Assembly (NCBI RefSeq): GCF_005843985.1
Contig: NZ_CP040463.1
Location: forward strand, 280,501-344,500
Direction: 5' to 3'
From: Caminibacter mediatlanticus TB-2
GTDB taxonomy: Bacteria > Campylobacterota > Campylobacteria > Campylobacterales > Nautiliaceae
DNA length: 64,000 bases
In this document: positions 7,571 through 55,889 of the stretch, piece by piece
Layout: the number at the start of each line of letters is the position of its first letter
Position numbering within the stretch: the stretch's first letter is position 1
Notes under the pieces: model-generated
What the model was told of the DNA's origin: nothing
Databases searched by the model: none
The model's input: only the letters and a program-made list of their open reading frames with translations
Made by a program: the position numbers and the translations under genes

Positions 7571-8044
7571 TTGAAAACTAAAAAACTTTTATTTTTAACT
7601 TTTAACTTTTTACTTTTTACTTTTTTTACTGCTTGTAGCACAAAGACAACTCCAATTTATACTGTAATTAAATCTCCTAAAATAAAAATTGCAGACCAAG
7701 GTTTCTTAGAAAAAGGAGTTGGATATAAAAAAATAGTAATTTATAAAGCTGGTATGGAACCTTTTAGTATTACAATCAAAAATTCATTTATTTGCATTAA
7801 TAATAAGTGTCAAGACAAAAAAAACGTTATTAATTCGTTAAATAAACAATATCCAGCTGACTTTTTTGATAAAATTTTAAATCAAAAACCATTAGAGTTT
7901 TTGGGAAAAATTAGAAAAATCAATAATGGCTTTATTCAAACAAAAGATGCTTATTTGTATAAAGTAACAAAAAATAAGGTTTTGTTTAAAGATAAAAATG
8001 CTCATATTTTAATATTGATTAAATTTTTAAAGGGGAAAGGATGA
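7571..8044 (+). CDS. Putative lipoprotein
   Basis: 157 residues, TTG start at 7571. The N-terminus is a lipoprotein signal peptide: basic start, a phenylalanine/leucine-rich core, then lipobox FTAC with the modified cysteine at residue 22. The mature part is lysine-rich with no domain I can name. It resembles small conserved lipoproteins of Campylobacter and Helicobacter. The hydrophobic core is encoded by a heptamer array (7598-7625), see the repeat entry. The last codons of this gene are also the very strong ribosome-binding site (AAAGGGGAAAGG) of galE, whose ATG overlaps the stop by four bases. Confidence 0.65.
   Translation: MKTKKLLFLTFNFLLFTFFTACSTKTTPIYTVIKSPKIKIADQGFLEKGVGYKKIVIYKAGMEPFSITIKNSFICINNKCQDKKNVINSLNKQYPADFFDKILNQKPLEFLGKIRKINNGFIQTKDAYLYKVTKNKVLFKDKNAHILILIKFLKGKG
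7598..7625 (+). repeat. Heptamer array 1 in lipoprotein signal peptide
   Basis: Four successive 7-base units: ACTTTTA, ACTTTTT, ACTTTTT, ACTTTTT, with looser copies before (7585) and after (7628). The units encode the phenylalanine/leucine core of the lipoprotein signal sequence. Period 7 is not a multiple of 3, so the repeat cycles through all three frames. Confidence 0.7.
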
Positions 8045-12521: not shown

Positions 12522-13442
12522 ATGATGAATAATATTAATATATTAGTAACAGGGAGTAGTGGACAACTTGGAAGTGAACTTAGGATGTTAAATGATAAAT
12601 TTAAAATGTTAAATTATAGATGTTTTTTCACAGATAAAAATGAACTTGATATAACAGATTTTAAAAAAGTAAAAGATTTTATAGAAAAAAATGATATTAA
12701 GATAATTATAAATACAGCTGCATATACAGCGGTTGATAAAGCAGAAGAAGAAAAAGAGTTAGCAGAGCTTATAAATTATAAAGCAGTTGAAAATTTAGCA
12801 AAAATAAGTAAAGAAAAAGATATATTTTTAGTTCATATTTCAACAGATTATGTATTTAATGGGAAAAATTATAGACCATATGTAGAAGAAGACAAAACTG
12901 ACCCAATAAATTATTATGGACTTACTAAATTAAAAGGTGAAGAAGCAATAAAAAAAATAAATCCAAAAGGTGTAATTATAAGGACTTCTTGGGTATATAG
13001 TAGCTTTGGGAAAAATTTTGTAAAAACAATGCTTAATTTGGCAAAGACAAAAAAAGAATTAAATATTATATTTGACCAAATAGGAACTCCTACTTATGCA
13101 AGAGACCTTGCCGAAGTAATACTTCGAATTTTAGATGTTAAATTTAAAATTACAGATTCAAATAATAATTTAACATCTAACATTAAACATTTACCATCTA
13201 ATGTAGAAATTTATCATTATAGTAATGAAGGAGTTTGTAGTTGGTATGATTTTGCAAAAGCAATATTTGAGATAGAAGGGATTGATATAAAAGTTAATCC
13301 AATAGAGAGTAAGGACTATCCAACACCAGCAAAAAGACCATTTTATTCAGTACTTAATAAGTCTAAAATAAAAAAAGATTTTAATATCGAAATTCCTTAT
13401 TGGAAGGAGAGCTTAAAAAAAATGTTAAATGAAAGATTTTAA
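12522..13442 (+). CDS. rfbD: dTDP-4-dehydrorhamnose reductase with two repeat-encoded insertions
   Basis: 306 residues; two adjacent ATGs (12522, 12525). It performs the last, NAD(P)H-dependent step to dTDP-L-rhamnose. The cofactor glycine motif is at residues 11-17 (GSSGQLG) and the YxxxK pair is Y132/K136. The C-terminal region holds YHYSNEGVCSWYDFAKAI. Two stretches do not match the family: residues about 21-34 and 204-227, both encoded by heptamer arrays. The second lengthens the loop just before the SNEG segment by about 22 residues. Catalytic parts are intact, so the enzyme is probably active. The last codons and stop are also heptamers shared with the next gene. Confidence 0.92.
   Translation: MMNNINILVTGSSGQLGSELRMLNDKFKMLNYRCFFTDKNELDITDFKKVKDFIEKNDIKIIINTAAYTAVDKAEEEKELAELINYKAVENLAKISKEKDIFLVHISTDYVFNGKNYRPYVEEDKTDPINYYGLTKLKGEEAIKKINPKGVIIRTSWVYSSFGKNFVKTMLNLAKTKKELNIIFDQIGTPTYARDLAEVILRILDVKFKITDSNNNLTSNIKHLPSNVEIYHYSNEGVCSWYDFAKAIFEIEGIDIKVNPIESKDYPTPAKRPFYSVLNKSKIKKDFNIEIPYWKESLKKMLNERF
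12583..12624 (+). repeat. Heptamer array 5 inside rfbD N-terminal region
   Basis: Six contiguous units: GGATGTT, AAATGAT, AAATTTA, AAATGTT, AAATTAT, AGATGTT. It is read through in frame as residues 21-34 of RfbD, at the end of the first Rossmann helix, where family members vary. Confidence 0.8.
13131..13202 (+). repeat. Inverted heptamer array 6 inside rfbD, no gene between arms
   Basis: Left arm units TTAGATG, TTAAATT, TAAAATT, ACAGATT (13131-13158). Right arm units ATTTAAC, ATCTAAC, ATTAAAC, ATTTACC, ATCTAAT (13168-13202). Bases 13131-13144 are the exact reverse complement of 13167-13180, so a 14-bp hairpin with a 22-base loop can form. A 23-base stretch (13161-13183) is repeated exactly at 13807-13829 at the rfbB start. 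Confidence 0.85.
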
Positions 13443-13462
13443 ATGTTAGATGGAAATTTAAT
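13421..13462 (+). repeat. Heptamer array 7, left arm of four-helix-bundle cassette A
   Basis: Six units in register: AATGTTA, AATGAAA, GATTTTA, AATGTTA, GATGGAA, ATTTAAT. It spans the end and stop of rfbD and the start codon of the four-helix-bundle gene. ATGTTAGATG at 13443-13452 is the exact reverse complement of 13820-13829 in the right arm. Confidence 0.8.
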
Positions 13463-13811
13463 AGCAATTAAGAGTTATAATTTTGCATTCAACATAATAG
13501 AGCTATATAAGTTTTTATCAGAAAGTAAAAAAGAATATATTTTATCTAAACAGTTATTAAGATGTGGCACATCAGTCGGTGCAAATATTCAAGAAGCACA
13601 AGCAGGGATAAATAAAAAAGATTTTATTGCTAAAATGAGTATAGCAGCAAAAGAAGCATTAGAAACAAGATATTGGATAAATTTATTAATTGATAGTGGA
13701 TATATTTCAAAAGATAAACAAAAAACAAAATATATATTAGAAAAGATTGAATCAATAATAAAAATTTTAACAAAAATTATAAAAACATCTCAAAAGGAAA
13801 AAAATGAATAA
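13443..13811 (+). CDS. Four-helix-bundle protein A (S23/Avd-like, TIGR02436 type)
   Basis: 122 residues, start ATG immediately after the rfbD stop. It has the family pattern: a SYNFA helix near residue 11, LSKQLLRCGTSVGANIQEAQ (35-54), KKDFIAKM (59-66), and an acidic EALETRYWINLL helix (69-80). It has no signal peptide. Relatives are encoded inside 23S rRNA intervening sequences, and the accessory protein Avd of diversity-generating retroelements shares the fold and binds nucleic acid. Nothing links it to rhamnose synthesis, yet it interrupts the rfb operon between rfbD and rfbB. Both sides are heptamer arrays in inverted orientation. Roughly half its residues match the second copy at 52729-53073. 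Function is unknown; nucleic-acid binding is inference. Confidence 0.85.
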   Translation: MLDGNLIAIKSYNFAFNIIELYKFLSESKKEYILSKQLLRCGTSVGANIQEAQAGINKKDFIAKMSIAAKEALETRYWINLLIDSGYISKDKQKTKYILEKIESIIKILTKIIKTSQKEKNE

Positions 13812-14898
13812 TAATTTAACATCTAACATCAAAAATCTAAAATCAATATTAATTACCGGCGGGGCTGGATTTATAGGAAGTAATTTTATTCCATATTTTT
13901 TAGAAAAGTATCCAGAATATAATGTAATAAATCTTGATAAATTAACTTATGCAGGCAATTTAGAAAATTTAAAAGAAGTAGATGAAAATCAAAGATATAA
14001 ATTTATAAAAGGTGATATTTGTAATAGAGAATTAGTTGAATATATTTTTAATGAATTTGATATTGGGGGAGTAATTCATTTTGCAGCAGAATCTCATGTA
14101 GATAATTCAATTAAAAATCCAGATGTATTTGTAAAAACAAATGTAAATGGGACTTTTACTTTAATAGATGTTGCATATAAATATTGGATGCAAGGGCCTT
14201 TTAAATATAAAGAAAAATATAAAGATTGTAGATTCCATCATATATCAACAGATGAAGTATATGGGACATTATCTGATGATCCAAATGAATTATTCACAGA
14301 AGAGACACCTTATAGACCTAATTCACCATACTCTGCAAGTAAAGCAAGTAGTGATATGATAGTTAGAAGTTATCATCATACTTATGGAATGAATACAATA
14401 ATAACAAATTGTTCAAACAATTATGGACCAAAGCAACATGATGAAAAATTAATTCCTACAATTATAAGAAATGCTATAAATTTAAATCCAATACCAATTT
14501 ATGGAGATGGAAAAAACATAAGAGATTGGTTATATGTGTTAGATCATTGCAAGGGAATAGATTTAGCATATCACAAAGGAAAAAGTGGAGAGACATATAA
14601 TATTGGTGGAAGAAATGAAAGGACTAATATTTATATTGCAAATAAAATATGTGAAATCCTTGATGAACTTTATCCTATTGAACAAAATTCTAAATTCTCA
14701 ACTCTCAATTCTCAATTAAAAAGTTATAAAGACCTTATAACATTTGTATCAGATAGACCAGGACATGATAGAAGATATGCAATAGATGCAAGTAAAATTG
14801 AAAATGAACTTGGATGGAGAGCTGATGAAAATTTTGAAAGTGGGATTGTGAAAACTATTAAGTGGTATTTAAGGAAGTATTTAGATAATGCTAAGTAA
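13804..14898 (+). CDS. rfbB: dTDP-glucose 4,6-dehydratase with repeat-encoded ends
   Basis: 364 residues. It converts dTDP-glucose to dTDP-4-keto-6-deoxyglucose with bound NAD+. The glycine motif is at residues 19-25 (GGAGFIG), the catalytic TDE triad is 149-151, and Y176/K180 form the YxxxK pair. The first 14 residues before the first strand are not part of the family and are encoded by the right arm of the heptamer cassette. Residues 295-306, between DELYP and the conserved DLITFVSDRPGHDRRYAID segment, come from another array. Start at 13804 is supported by AAAAGGAA upstream. It overlaps the four-helix gene by 8 bases and wzx by 11. Confidence 0.94.
   Translation: MNNNLTSNIKNLKSILITGGAGFIGSNFIPYFLEKYPEYNVINLDKLTYAGNLENLKEVDENQRYKFIKGDICNRELVEYIFNEFDIGGVIHFAAESHVDNSIKNPDVFVKTNVNGTFTLIDVAYKYWMQGPFKYKEKYKDCRFHHISTDEVYGTLSDDPNELFTEETPYRPNSPYSASKASSDMIVRSYHHTYGMNTIITNCSNNYGPKQHDEKLIPTIIRNAINLNPIPIYGDGKNIRDWLYVLDHCKGIDLAYHKGKSGETYNIGGRNERTNIYIANKICEILDELYPIEQNSKFSTLNSQLKSYKDLITFVSDRPGHDRRYAIDASKIENELGWRADENFESGIVKTIKWYLRKYLDNAK
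13814..13848 (+). repeat. Heptamer array 7, right arm of four-helix-bundle cassette A
   Basis: Five units: ATTTAAC, ATCTAAC, ATCAAAA, ATCTAAA, ATCAATA. They are the reverse complement type of the left arm at 13421-13462. It encodes the extra N-terminal residues of RfbB. Bases 13807-13829 are identical to 13161-13183 inside rfbD, a direct repeat 646 bases apart that brackets the four-helix-bundle gene. Confidence 0.8.
14686..14720 (+). repeat. Heptamer array 8 inside rfbB C-terminal region
   Basis: Five contiguous units: AATTCTA, AATTCTC, AACTCTC, AATTCTC, AATTAAA. It is read in frame as residues 295-306 of RfbB (serine, leucine, asparagine and glutamine rich) in a loop before the last conserved segment. 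This word family (AATTCTN) also appears in wecB near 31057. Confidence 0.85.
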
Positions 14899-51598: not shown

Positions 51599-52726
51599 TT
51601 GAAAAAGAAAATTGCTATTGTTGTATTTATTATTTTAATTGTTATCTCTATAATTGGATTATATAAGTATTATGTTTTTAATAAAAACTACGCTTCAAGC
51701 AATGCTGTGTTTGTAAAATCTGACTCTTTAACATTTCTTTCATTTAAATTACCAGGAAAAATAGAAAAAATTTATGTAAATGAAGGTGATAATGTAAAAA
51801 AAGGAGAGTTACTTGCAAAACTTGATACTAAAAATTTAGAAATTCAAAAAAAAGAATTAGAGTTTAATATAAATGCTCTTGCTAAAAATATTGAAGCTTT
51901 GAGTTTGCAAAAAGAAAAACTTAAAAAAGATATAAATACAAATTTAAAAATTAATGCTATTGAATTAGCTAAATTACAAGATACAATAAAAGCAAAAGCA
52001 TTTGGAATTGATGCTAAAATATATAAGCGTAATAAATTAAAAAATGATTATTTAAGATTTGAGAGACTTTTTAAAGAAAATAAAATTTCAAGAGAAAAGT
52101 ATGAAACTATAAAAACAGCTTTTCTTGCTTTAAAAGATGAAATTAATGCTGATAAAAGTATGCTTGATTCTTTAATTAAAAATAAAAAACTTTTAATGCA
52201 AAAAAGAGAATTAATACTTAATTCAAAAAAAGAGATTGAAAGATTAAAAAAAACAATAGAATCTTCACAACAAAAACTACAAGCATTAAATGAAAAACTT
52301 GCTTTAATCAATCAAAATATCAAAGATAGTTATCTTTACGCTCCATTTAGTGGAAAAATAGCTAAGAAGTTTGCAAATAATAATGAAGTAATTGGTGCAG
52401 GTATGAAAGTTTTAAGTTTAGTTAATTTAAATAATTTATATGTTTTAGATTTACTTGAAGAGACTAAAATGAAAGGAATAGGAAAAGGTTGTGATGTAAA
52501 AATTCATATTGATGCATTAAATAAAGATTTTGATGGGTATATTGAAAAAATCCTTCCAGCCAGTGCAGCAACTTTTGCCTTAGTTCCAAGAGACATAAGT
52601 AGCGGAGAATTTACAAAACTTGCTCAAAGGTTTTATGTAAGAATAAGATTTAAAAAAATCCCTAAAAATGTATTAGTTGGAATGAGCGGAGAAGTTGTTA
52701 TAAAAAAATGTAAAATGGAAAATTGA
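51599..52726 (+). CDS. HlyD/EmrA-family membrane fusion protein
   Basis: 375 residues, TTG start supported by AAAAAGGA. One N-terminal membrane helix (residues 5-23), a first lipoyl half-motif (PGKIEKIYVNEGDNVKKGELL), a long coiled-coil hairpin rich in lysine and leucine (about 85-235), the second lipoyl half (SGKIAKKFANNNEVIGAG) and a beta-barrel domain. It links an inner-membrane pump to a TolC-type channel. The nearest matching pump is the DHA2-type MFS gene 336 bases on, with a four-helix-bundle gene wedged between. Its last residues and stop are made of heptamer repeats. Confidence 0.87.
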   Translation: MKKKIAIVVFIILIVISIIGLYKYYVFNKNYASSNAVFVKSDSLTFLSFKLPGKIEKIYVNEGDNVKKGELLAKLDTKNLEIQKKELEFNINALAKNIEALSLQKEKLKKDINTNLKINAIELAKLQDTIKAKAFGIDAKIYKRNKLKNDYLRFERLFKENKISREKYETIKTAFLALKDEINADKSMLDSLIKNKKLLMQKRELILNSKKEIERLKKTIESSQQKLQALNEKLALINQNIKDSYLYAPFSGKIAKKFANNNEVIGAGMKVLSLVNLNNLYVLDLLEETKMKGIGKGCDVKIHIDALNKDFDGYIEKILPASAATFALVPRDISSGEFTKLAQRFYVRIRFKKIPKNVLVGMSGEVVIKKCKMEN

Positions 52727-52744
52727 AAATGGAAAATGAAAATG
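52704..52744 (+). repeat. Heptamer array 10, left arm of four-helix-bundle cassette B
   Basis: Units AAAAATG, TAAAATG, GAAAATT, GAAAATG, GAAAATG and a final AAAATG. It covers the last codons and stop of the hlyD gene and the start codon of the four-helix-bundle gene. Its 28 bases 52711-52738 match the reverse complement of 53083-53110 at 24 positions. Confidence 0.85.
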
Positions 52745-53073
52745 TAATTTTAGATAAAAGTTACAATTTTGCTTTAAGAATAATAAAAGTTTATAAATTT
52801 CTAAATACTCAAAAAAAATTTATTTTATCTAAACAACTTTTAAGAAGTGGTACAAGTATAGGGGCAAATATTACAGAGGCCCAAGAAGCTATATCTAAAA
52901 AAGATTTTAAAAATAAAATGTTTATTGCTTTAAAAGAAGCAGCAGAGAGTAGATATTGGGTTAAATTGTTAAAAGATAGTGAATATTTAACTCAAAAACA
53001 AGCAAAAAGTTTATTAGATGATTTAGAAGAAATTATAAAAATACTCTCAAAGATTGTAAAAAATGCAAACTAA
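52729..53073 (+). CDS. Four-helix-bundle protein B (S23/Avd-like, TIGR02436 type)
   Basis: 114 residues from the ATG at 52729; a TTG at 52723 overlapping the hlyD stop is an alternative. Family segments are SYNFALRIIKVYKFL, LSKQLLRSGTSIGANITEAQ, KKDFKNKM and KEAAESRYWVKLL, in the same order as copy A (13443-13811). Roughly half of all positions are identical between the two. It has no signal peptide and no link to efflux. Relatives occur in 23S rRNA intervening sequences and the fold is shared with retroelement Avd. It is bracketed by inverted heptamer arrays and interrupts an EmrA-EmrB-like pair. Role unknown. Confidence 0.87.
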   Translation: MENENVILDKSYNFALRIIKVYKFLNTQKKFILSKQLLRSGTSIGANITEAQEAISKKDFKNKMFIALKEAAESRYWVKLLKDSEYLTQKQAKSLLDDLEEIIKILSKIVKNAN

Positions 53074-54568
53074 ATCATTTTCCATTTTACATTTTACATT
53101 GTCCATTTTATTAGTGATAACAGGTGCTTTTATGGCTGTTTTGGATACAACAGTTGTAGATATAATTGTCCCTCGTCTAAAAGGACCTCTTTCAACTGAT
53201 ATTTATGGAGTCCAATGGGTAATAACAGCATATATGATAGCAGCAGCAGTTGGGCTTTTAGTTGTTGAGTGGTTAATTAAAAAGTATGGAAGTACTAAAA
53301 TATATTTAATAGGTGTTGCCGTATTTACTCTTGCTTCTTTTATGTGTGGGATTTCAAATTCACTTGTAGAGATTATAACAGCAAGGGTTATTCAAGGATT
53401 CGCAGAAGCGTTAGTTATGGTAACAGCCCAAGCTATTATTTTTAGTCTTTTCCCTCCTGAGAAAAGAGGAATAGCAATGGGAATTTTTGCTCTTGGAGTT
53501 GCATTTGCCCCAGCTGTTGGACCAACTCTTGGAGGGTATTTGACTGAGTGGTTTTCTTGGAGGGCTGTATTTTTTGTAAATGTGCCGATTGGAATTATTT
53601 TAGTCATTTTTGGAAGTTTGCTTTTACCAGATATTGGAGAGAGAAAACCTTATAAACTAAATATAATCTCTTTAATATTCCTTACAATTTTTACCGTAGC
53701 CCTTCTTATAATGCTCTCAAAAGGTCAACAATATGGATGGTTTAGTAGCGATTTTATCGTATATTTAGCATTTATAAGTTGGTTTGGATTTTTATTTTTT
53801 GTAATAAATGAATATTTTAGCAAAAATAAACTATTTGATTATTCTTTATTCAAAAACTATTACTATACTATTGGAATTTTAGTTTATTTTATTTTGCTTG
53901 GATTTTCAATGTATCAATATTTTTATTTAATTCCAATTTATTACGAGCAATTAAAAGGCCTTCCTTCAATTCAAACAGGACTTGGGGTTTTAGGATTTGG
54001 AATTTGGATAGGAGTTTTTAGTTTAATTGCAGGAGTCCTTAGTGATAAATTTTCACCAATTCCTGTTTTAATAATAGGTGCTTTGATTTATTTATATGCA
54101 GGATATTTTCTTTTTCCTACTTTAAATTACTACACTCCTTTTTATGAAGCAGTTTTAAAAACAATGCCATTTGGAATTGCAATGGGACTTTTTTTTGCAC
54201 CTATTACTGTTTTAGTTATGAATAATTCAAATGGAAAAATCGAACAAGGCATTATGACAATGGATTATGTTAGATTTATTGGAGGAAGTTTTGGGACAGC
54301 AATAGCAACTAATAATTTAGTTTTTTATAAAAATAAAGAGTTTGATGGAATGGTTACTTTACAAGAGTTTCATATAGTAAATGATTTTTTACAAACAATT
54401 GAAAAATTTTTTGGAATAGCTGGAAGGGAAGTTTTTAGAATGTATGAAGAGTTTATGAGTTTTAATTATGGATTTAAGTATGTATGGCTTAATGCTGCAT
54501 TTTGGGGGCTTATTGGTAGTTTATTTATTTTTGCTTTATTATTTAAAAGGAGAAACAATGAAAATTAA
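53063..54568 (+). CDS. DHA2-family MFS efflux transporter (EmrB-like)
   Basis: 501 residues, fourteen predicted membrane helices. The first helix ends in AVLDTTVVDIIVPRL, and the motif C-like GVAFAPAVGPTLGGYLTEW is typical of DHA2 drug/H+ antiporters. With the HlyD-type protein and the TolC-type channel it can form a tripartite pump. The start at 53063 lies inside the four-helix gene. The codons for residues 5-16, before and into helix 1, are the right-hand heptamer array, so the N-terminus has been rebuilt by repeats. Substrate unknown. Confidence 0.88.
   Translation: MQTKSFSILHFTLSILLVITGAFMAVLDTTVVDIIVPRLKGPLSTDIYGVQWVITAYMIAAAVGLLVVEWLIKKYGSTKIYLIGVAVFTLASFMCGISNSLVEIITARVIQGFAEALVMVTAQAIIFSLFPPEKRGIAMGIFALGVAFAPAVGPTLGGYLTEWFSWRAVFFVNVPIGIILVIFGSLLLPDIGERKPYKLNIISLIFLTIFTVALLIMLSKGQQYGWFSSDFIVYLAFISWFGFLFFVINEYFSKNKLFDYSLFKNYYYTIGILVYFILLGFSMYQYFYLIPIYYEQLKGLPSIQTGLGVLGFGIWIGVFSLIAGVLSDKFSPIPVLIIGALIYLYAGYFLFPTLNYYTPFYEAVLKTMPFGIAMGLFFAPITVLVMNNSNGKIEQGIMTMDYVRFIGGSFGTAIATNNLVFYKNKEFDGMVTLQEFHIVNDFLQTIEKFFGIAGREVFRMYEEFMSFNYGFKYVWLNAAFWGLIGSLFIFALLFKRRNNEN
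53076..53110 (+). repeat. Heptamer array 10, right arm of four-helix-bundle cassette B
   Basis: Five exact-register units: CATTTTC, CATTTTA, CATTTTA, CATTGTC, CATTTTA, the reverse complement type of the left arm at 52704-52744. It encodes the start of the first membrane helix of the MFS protein. CATTGTC is the reverse complement of GACAATG, a unit in the galE array 45 kb away. Confidence 0.85.
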
Positions 54569-55889
54569 AAATGAAAAGTGTAAAATGAAAAATTTAGGAA
54601 AAGTATTTTTATTATTACCTTTATTTTTAAGTGCTGAGAGTTTTAGCGATATTCAAAAAGATGTTATAAATTCACTAACTTATAAAATGGCAAAAGAGAA
54701 GATAAAAATTTTTAAAAAGAAATTAGAAATTGTTAAATCAAAGAATTATGGTAGTGTAGATGTAAAATATTCATATGCTCATCTTTTTAATCAGCCTATT
54801 TTAAAAATGAATACTATGCAACCTGTTGCAGTCAATCCTGTGACAAATTTATTAATTTATAAAGAAATATACACAGAATTTCCAGCAGGACCTCAAAATA
54901 TCTATTCGTTTGAAGCAATCTATTCTTACCCAATATTTACTGGGTTTGCAATTTCAAATAATATTAAAAAATCAAAACTTGAACTAATAAAAACAAAATT
55001 AGAAGCTAAAAATGTAAAAAGAGTTTTAATTTTAAAAGCAGCAGAACTTTATTCTAATATTTATGCATTAAATAAGCAAATAAAAGCTCTAAAAGTAGCT
55101 AAAAATTCACTTCTTGATGCAAAAAATCAAGTAGAGAGTTTATATAAAGAAGGACTTACTGCAAAATCAAATGTTGATATCATTAATGCAAAATATTATG
55201 AGCTTTTAGCAAAAATAAAAGAAGTTAAATCTCAAAAAAATCGATTATTAAATATGCTAAGTTTTCTTTTGAATAAAAAAATAACTAATATTGATGGAAT
55301 TAATTTAAATCAAAAACTTCCAAAGCCAAATTTTGAAAAAAGGGTTGATGTAAAAGCTTTAAAAACAGCACTTAATATTTCTAATAAAGATATAAAGCTT
55401 GCAAAATCTCTTCTTTATCCAAAAGTTGGATTACAAATAGGATTAAAAAAAGAGGCTCAAAATCTATTTCTTACAAAAAACGATTATCAAAATATAGACC
55501 GCTCGTTTGTTGGAGTTGGGATTGAGTGGAGTTTTGATTTAGGCAAAAAATCTCAAATAGAAATGGCAAAAATAGCTAAAAATATTGCACTTACAAATTA
55601 TCATAACTATTTAAATCAAATAAAAACAGAGTATCAAAATGATTTAGATACTCTAAATGCACTTAAATATCAGTTAAAATCAGCAATTGCTGAGGTAAGT
55701 GCAAGAAAAAGTTATTATGAGGAAATAAAAGCTAAATTTAATCAAGGACTTGTTGATAGTGTGAAATTAAAAGATGCAATTAGTAATTTAGCTATTGCAA
55801 GGGCAAAAAGAGATTATATAAAATCTCAAATTTTCTTTATTAAAACAAAACTTATTTTAAATTCAGGAGTAAGTGATGCAAATAATTAA
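54558..55889 (+). CDS. TolC-like outer-membrane efflux channel
   Basis: 443 residues from the ATG at 54558, chosen because AAGGAG (54547-54552) precedes it. A longer frame from 54468 lies inside the MFS gene. A signal peptide (LGKVFLLLPLFLSAES) follows an unusual lysine/asparagine-rich prefix coded by a heptamer array. Two OEP repeats with long helices follow, including the GLVDSVKLKDAISNLAIA segment near the end. It provides the outer-membrane duct for the MFS pump upstream, the ABC exporter downstream, or both. It overlaps the upstream gene by 11 bases and the next by 14. Confidence 0.85.
   Translation: MKIKNEKCKMKNLGKVFLLLPLFLSAESFSDIQKDVINSLTYKMAKEKIKIFKKKLEIVKSKNYGSVDVKYSYAHLFNQPILKMNTMQPVAVNPVTNLLIYKEIYTEFPAGPQNIYSFEAIYSYPIFTGFAISNNIKKSKLELIKTKLEAKNVKRVLILKAAELYSNIYALNKQIKALKVAKNSLLDAKNQVESLYKEGLTAKSNVDIINAKYYELLAKIKEVKSQKNRLLNMLSFLLNKKITNIDGINLNQKLPKPNFEKRVDVKALKTALNISNKDIKLAKSLLYPKVGLQIGLKKEAQNLFLTKNDYQNIDRSFVGVGIEWSFDLGKKSQIEMAKIAKNIALTNYHNYLNQIKTEYQNDLDTLNALKYQLKSAIAEVSARKSYYEEIKAKFNQGLVDSVKLKDAISNLAIARAKRDYIKSQIFFIKTKLILNSGVSDANN
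54561..54595 (+). repeat. Heptamer array 11 at the start of the TolC-like gene
   Basis: Five units: AAAATTA, AAAATGA, AAAGTGT, AAAATGA, AAAATTT. It starts at the second codon of the gene, also covers the stop of the MFS gene, and adds about ten charged residues ahead of the signal peptide's hydrophobic core. Confidence 0.8.

Follow-up and report, generated by a model that had tools for sequence, protein, structure and literature searches.

An S23 gene enclosed by inverted arms of tandem heptamers, termed here an S23 cassette, is almost certainly a real and general genetic unit. Two such cassettes, A (gene at 13443-13811) and B (gene at 52729-53073), are present in the window, a stretch of 64,000 nucleotides (25% GC) from the 1.69-Mb, single-contig genome of Caminibacter mediatlanticus TB-2 (G000). 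A search of this genome revealed no other genes matching PF05635, the family to which S23 proteins belong. We know of no function for PF05635 proteins, which are widespread and are annotated as "four helix bundle protein." A description of a general S23 cassette outside rRNA was not found in the literature searched, which lay mostly outside subscription journals. Our findings suggest a much wider occurrence of this poorly understood insertion element than is described in the literature we found.

Cassette B is located between an EmrA/HlyD-like gene (51599-52726) and an EmrB-like MFS gene (53063-54568). These neighbors, the parts of both cassettes, and a third heptamer array described below are on the forward strand. 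Its S23 / 23S_rRNA_IVP four-helix-bundle gene encodes a protein of 114 amino acids that matches PF05635 (E = 5e-30) with 104.3 bits in a Pfam profile search, against a curated cutoff of 33.8. The nearest solved structure is 2RLD (E = 2.8e-33). Both 2RLD and a second solved relative, 2GSC, have five chains, and a homopentamer has been reported for XCC0516. The left arm (52705-52744) is a C-poor series of ∼6 tandem 7-nt units, GAAAATG/TAAAATG, that holds the stop codon of the EmrA-like gene (52724-52726) and runs into the first codons of the S23 gene. The right arm (53076-53110) is G-poor and carries an inverted copy of the left-arm word in five units, CATTTTC/CATTTTA. The EmrB-like gene begins 5′ of this arm, with a start codon that overlaps the end of the S23 gene, and the right arm is read as codons of the EmrB-like N-terminus.

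The first-pass annotation of this DNA had proposed this gene, these neighbors, the arms, and their overlap with the upstream stop and the first downstream codons. Pfam and TRF agree on these points, with TRF calling 7-bp arrays at 52705-52744 (AAAATGG x5.9) and 53076-53110 (CATTTTA x5.0). The left arm matches the reverse complement of the right arm at 30 of 35 positions in a single ungapped block, in line with the 24 of 28 positions claimed before. The term "four-helix-bundle gene" was likewise correct, but the link to the 23S rRNA IVS/S23 element was missing. Both arms qualify as simple heptanucleotide SSRs (tandem 7-nt units with variable copy number), with the inverted pairing around a gene as an additional feature.

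When arms are scored as matches minus mismatches, cassette B reaches 27, whereas the maximum is 19 at 1548 other positions of the window and 18 in 4000 Markov sequences. Chance in AT-rich DNA is therefore ruled out for cassette B, whose arms are equaled by 0 of 1548 window positions and 0 of 4000 random sequences. Cassette A encodes a PF05635 protein 59% identical to that of cassette B. Its left arm (13420-13459) is made of degenerate ATGTTAG/ATGTTAA words, and its right arm (13814-13850) of AACATCT words that are read as the N-terminus of a dTDP-glucose dehydratase-like protein. The strongest period-7 sites of the window include the right arm of cassette A and both arms of cassette B. However, the cassette A arm score of 17 is equaled at 6 of 1548 window positions and in 2 of 4000 Markov sequences, so cassette A is convincing mainly in company while cassette B is beyond chance alone. 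The earlier argument against chance, from two loci with one layout, holds for cassette B and is weaker for cassette A taken by itself. Two observations had been named in advance that would speak against it, equal scores in random sequence and other copies lacking such flanks. Neither was found: random controls do not reach the arms of cassette B, and PF05635 loci in other genomes do carry such flanks.

PF05635 genes are present in 10 of 21 genomes of the same family, where most flanks are mirrored heptamers with differing words, and matches occur in 37 of 298 genomes of the phylum. The survey of period 7 in other Campylobacterota that had been called for gave a clear signal. Across 95 scored loci of Campylobacterota, the mean of the highest period-7 score is 18.6 in one flank and 19.9 in the other (out of 28), compared with 12.1 in distal windows of these loci; period 14 is raised as a multiple of 7, period 8 slightly, and other periods hardly at all. 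The inverted arm match has a mean of 19.1 within a locus, versus 9.2 for arms of different loci and 9.5 for the non-inverted comparison. The own-locus score is in the top 5% of swapped loci at 75 of the 95 loci, and about a fifth of loci are without a clear arm match. A second set of 80 loci was drawn from Bacteroidota, Clostridia, Patescibacteria, Proteobacteria, Chloroflexi, Spirochaetes, and others; in the 77 that could be scored, the match is 19.8 within a locus and 9.8 after swapping. PF05635 loci share descent and these counts are not independent trials, and the swapped-locus control addresses composition rather than phylogeny. Arrays were called at 149 of 176 PF05635 loci (period 7 at 133 and period 8 at 16, the only two periods offered). 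The arms thus proved to be a conserved part of the unit, as had been supposed, and this hypervariable, inverted period-7 packaging gives PF05635 proteins a common element biology.

Arms are also present at most S23 genes in IMG/VR contigs and at five of five Nostocales plasmid loci, and the phage records searched held no S23 match. The plasmid cassettes (L238-L242, from Calothrix, Trichormus, and Nostoc) have GGGTGTA/GGGAGTA-like arms, or CAGAATT-like arms in Trichormus, and resemble described cyanobacterial heptamer repeats. Five bAvd genes that exceed their cutoff have arm scores of 7-10 and no period 7, which indicates that mirrored heptamers are not a property of the fold in general.

Cassette B has the defining arrangement of a 23S rRNA IVS, an S23 ORF between complementary ends. 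IVSs with an S23p ORF are known from Leptospira and Coxiella, and the Coxiella IVS carries tandem heptamers (GACAGAT) in its 5′ arm, with a copy number that varies by strain (PMC4990558). Within this phylum, G041 has three PF05635 genes with identical scores, all within 23S rRNA (L048). The arms of this IVS are alternating GGAATAC/AGATTAC units mirrored over about 43 nt, and the insert replaces the hairpin GGCTTGATTTATCAAGC of G038, whose rRNA is empty and nearly identical on both sides. This comparison reveals a hairpin replacement with no clear target-site duplication, and the boundary of the emrA/emrB insertion is blurred. Given the heptameric arms in G041 and the 5′-arm heptamers in Coxiella, free-standing S23 cassettes and 23S rRNA IVSs are treated here as one kind of element, which they appear to be. 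They share the PF05635 protein and the enclosure of its gene by inverted repeats (an IVS stem of ∼28-bp). They differ in that L048 lies in a 23S rRNA helix, whereas the window cassettes occupy mRNA junctions between protein genes and have right arms translated into the next protein. Also, the arms of the cassettes are generally heptameric and have locus-specific words. The common packaging ties the rRNA IVS to many insertions in protein operons, and the long-open question of IVS origin and mobility becomes testable. In the species represented by G041, the S23 IVS is found in all three rRNA operons, and its congener G038 has none, so the pair is well suited to studying how an IVS is gained or lost.

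Other known systems resemble the cassette only in part. Avd of diversity-generating retroelements (PF22296) has a related four-helix-bundle fold, but the window S23 genes are not DGR Avd genes: the match is weak (24.8 bits, below the 40-bit cutoff), true bAvd genes (n = 5) are without arms, the window cassette is without an RT, and the RVT_1 hits of G000 are outside the window. Mobility that depends on an RT in cis was rejected, as G017 and G018 (two and five S23 genes) have no RVT_1 match. Like MITEs and insertion sequences, the cassette is a short unit with inverted ends at many sites. Unlike them, it has no transposase or fixed terminal sequence. A target duplication was not consistently seen at the sites compared; an element with a conserved terminal inverted repeat was rejected because cassettes of one genome have unrelated words. 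The dispersed heptameric SSRs of Xanthomonas and Nostoc (GGGAATC and GGGGATT; PMC4692102) and cyanobacterial STRR repeats share 7-nt units, many sites, inverted pairs, and variable copy number. However, in the available part of that source, the SSRs have one main word per genome and no link to S23, whereas each S23 cassette has a private word.

The words of the arms are locus-specific, travel with the gene, and change fast. Left-arm similarity across genomes is 0.63 where the proteins are at least 75% identical and 0.32 at 60-75% identity, and it is at background level for less similar proteins. Among low-identity cassettes, word similarity is 0.21 within one genome and 0.20 between genomes. 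These values and the swapped-locus scores support the earlier claim that the arms are not fixed terminal repeats and that the word is common within a locus but not between loci. They also rule out one genome-wide word for all arms across Campylobacterota, even though the cassette B word is dispersed in G000. Orthologous cassettes whose genes are 94.5% identical differ in unit number and composition, and the second of these genes is interrupted by stops. Recently duplicated cassettes at two sites of a single genome could reveal whether arms travel, but a search for them found none.

The emrA/emrB junction illustrates this turnover. Its cassettes in eight genomes form one clade (support 97/91), which is consistent with a single ancestral insertion. 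At this apparently ancestral site the word is no longer the same in all genomes, and several lineages have altered it in both arms: it is GAAAATG in G000, AAAAGTG in G012, and GGAGAAT/GAGAATT in G013 and G018, with both arms in agreement. The arms are partly different in G017, G019, and G001, and none are left in G011. The junction of G006 is empty, with an intact EmrB N-terminus and no array. In three genomes (G016, G008, and G015) the S23 gene is missing but one heptamer array is present at the EmrB N-terminus, and we read these solo arrays as probable scars.

The first-pass annotation suggested that arms are made or copied locally. Copying of one arm from the other as an ordered block is ruled out, since shuffling unit order in one arm leaves the arm match undiminished (33 loci, Fisher p = 0.87). 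Furthermore, one arm alone has been homogenized to a new unit in L079/L085. Arm mismatches have no G-U excess (149 versus 235 the other way). Since neither a shuffling effect nor a G-U preference was seen, what the two arms have in common is probably a word, which slippage renews, and not an aligned sequence that base pairing protects. As an account of cassette B, local making is too restrictive, its word being a heptamer dispersed across the whole of G000.

The cassettes are oriented with the operons that host them. Both neighbors are codirectional with the S23 gene at 140 of 165 loci, and adjacent control pairs agree in 69 of 93 cases. Left arms contain 8% C and 31% G, and right arms 8% G and 31% C. 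The upstream ORF stops within the left arm at 65 of 122 loci. Selection for stop codons was rejected as the origin of left-arm words: the strand asymmetry mostly follows from the G/C skew, and the stop excess over unit-permuted arrays is small and present in right arms too. On the other side, 60 of 128 loci have an ORF that opens just 5′ of the right arm, crosses it, and joins a long ORF; the count is 20 of 128 when the array is inverted in place. Starts preceded by Shine-Dalgarno-like sequences 5′ of the right arm are in frame in 29 of 47 cases, more than one third. Right arms that are read through would yield N-termini such as MKHNNLSTHPPIHSSTHPLILVTGGAGYIG, and such translation may explain the odd N-terminal tails of many annotated proteins.

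Heptamer arrays are also spread beyond the cassettes, to adjacent junctions and, in genomes of this family, to sites across the genome. The density of period-7 arrays at 0.3-1.5 kb from Campylobacterota cassettes is 0.22/kb, against 0.015/kb in ten stretches taken at random. Of these flank arrays, 47% are at gene ends, where 14% would be expected, and in the combined set 26 of 73 match the word of their own cassette in the top 5%. Some may be arms of a neighboring S23 gene outside the fetched stretch. In the window, a third heptamer array (54552-54593; GAAAAAT/AAAATGA), similar in word to cassette B, is at the emrB/tolC junction, at the start of a TolC-like gene. Arrays at this junction in G018 and G019 have words also present in their emrAB arms, and the junction has no array in G006, G001, and G017.

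Searches and sampled stretches of G000 located the cassette B word at about 14 other places, many within genes and all in sense orientation; a reversed control pattern of GAAAATG gave no arrays in this genome. For example, L292, L295, and L301 are GAAAATG arrays in or beside ORFs, G-type on the coding strand, that are apparent short in-frame insertions. A small set of 20-kb samples showed dispersed arrays in the S23-bearing genomes of this family and also in G015, where a scar but no intact S23 gene is present. Their density is 0.02-0.13/kb in the stretches sampled from several Nautiliaceae-like 4HB+ genomes, and the word dialect varies by genome. About 550 kb sampled from genomes without S23 genes had no dispersed arrays; period-7 matches in stretches of G002, G003, and G006 were masked N runs and were discarded. 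All 34 classified arrays are G-type on the coding strand, versus a baseline of 81-83% (P about 0.001-0.002).

We regard as somewhat better than evenly probable a mechanism in which a free-standing S23/IVP cassette in an operon junction is mobile, has words copied at the DNA level, and uses its S23 protein. The element comprises a single S23 gene between two inverted arms, each a tandem series of 7-nt (occasionally 8-nt) words, and appears to be the ORF-bearing 23S rRNA IVS placed in an operon junction. It would be mobile and largely selfish, and mRNAs would probably tolerate it since upstream translation ends in the left arm while the right end gives a start codon and an open linker. Arms may grow and homogenize by slippage, with the common word reseeded within a locus by template switching or ectopic conversion; in some genomes such copying could reach nearby and distant sites. 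The S23 protein would serve this cycle, perhaps by holding the folded arms. The cassette encodes no mobility enzyme, no transposition event was observed among the loci compared, and empty sites could be losses. The mechanism also depends on a hypothetical step of word copying.

If the arms were instead RNA hairpins under selection in the transcript, then RNase III might cut the S23 cassette from mRNA as it does the IVS from rRNA, uncoupling the neighbors. The arms in the cassette B transcript are indeed predicted to pair (MFE -78.4 kcal/mol, z -3.9), their C-poor and G-poor compositions favor inter-arm pairing, and RNase III cuts the Coxiella IVS in the stem that contains the 5′-arm heptamers (PMC4990558). 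However, the start codon of the next gene is inside the loop at many loci, so excision would remove it, and a single arm can homogenize by itself. Because words are not shared as ordered copies and mismatches have no G-U bias, RNA pairing alone is an insufficient explanation of the arms, and we consider this scenario unlikely. We think it very improbable that the right arm is a contingency switch, in which 7-nt slippage shifts the downstream reading frame and causes phase variation. A unit length that is not a multiple of 3, the position of an arm that at many loci separates the start codon from the gene body, and the in-frame SD-preceded starts fit a switch, and neuO is a known phase-variable heptanucleotide gene. 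Nevertheless, a switch needs no left arm, and arms also exist in rRNA and at loci without read-through into a gene.

Dispersal of the cassette B word raises another scenario, that the arms reflect a general heptamer process collecting around S23 genes. Arrays would then be products of a repeat process that acts genome-wide and independently of S23 (slippage-prone or dispersed 7-mers), with S23 genes as passengers that landed in or next to them. The roughly 14 additional GAAAATG places in G000 and the arrays in 4HB+ genomes and G015 favor this proposal, as does the over-representation of heptameric SSRs in bacteria, many of them inverted pairs in Xanthomonas, reported in PMC4692102. In contrast, neither the unoccupied emrAB site in G006 nor the G038 rRNA, which lacks the insert, has an array, and arms are present in genomes with few dispersed arrays (1 in 120 kb across six other 4HB+ genomes). 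Moreover, cassettes of one genome carry unrelated words, and the dispersed arrays are all G-type in sense whereas the right arm of a cassette is C-type. We therefore judge the passenger scenario rather unlikely and retain the mobile cassette with DNA-level word copying. More speculative, and quite doubtful, is the idea of a sequence-agnostic system, with S23 proteins as members, for writing or propagating tandem 7-nt words. It would seed the inverted arms of its own gene at each landing site and carry the same word into neighboring operon junctions and, in some genomes, into coding sequences genome-wide, with a transcription-dependent orientation. Heptameric repeats are in unexplained excess in bacteria, and S23 cassettes may be one of their sources.

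Several individual arrays can be added. A run of about 50 GAGAATT units is present in G017 (G017:C1:725816-726171). In the window, a C-type array at 7587-7625 (TTTTACT x5.6) contributes codons to the signal peptide of a putative small lipoprotein and has no S23 gene near it. An AATTCTC x4.6 array (14686-14717) lies within the dTDP-glucose dehydratase-like gene and is probably translated.
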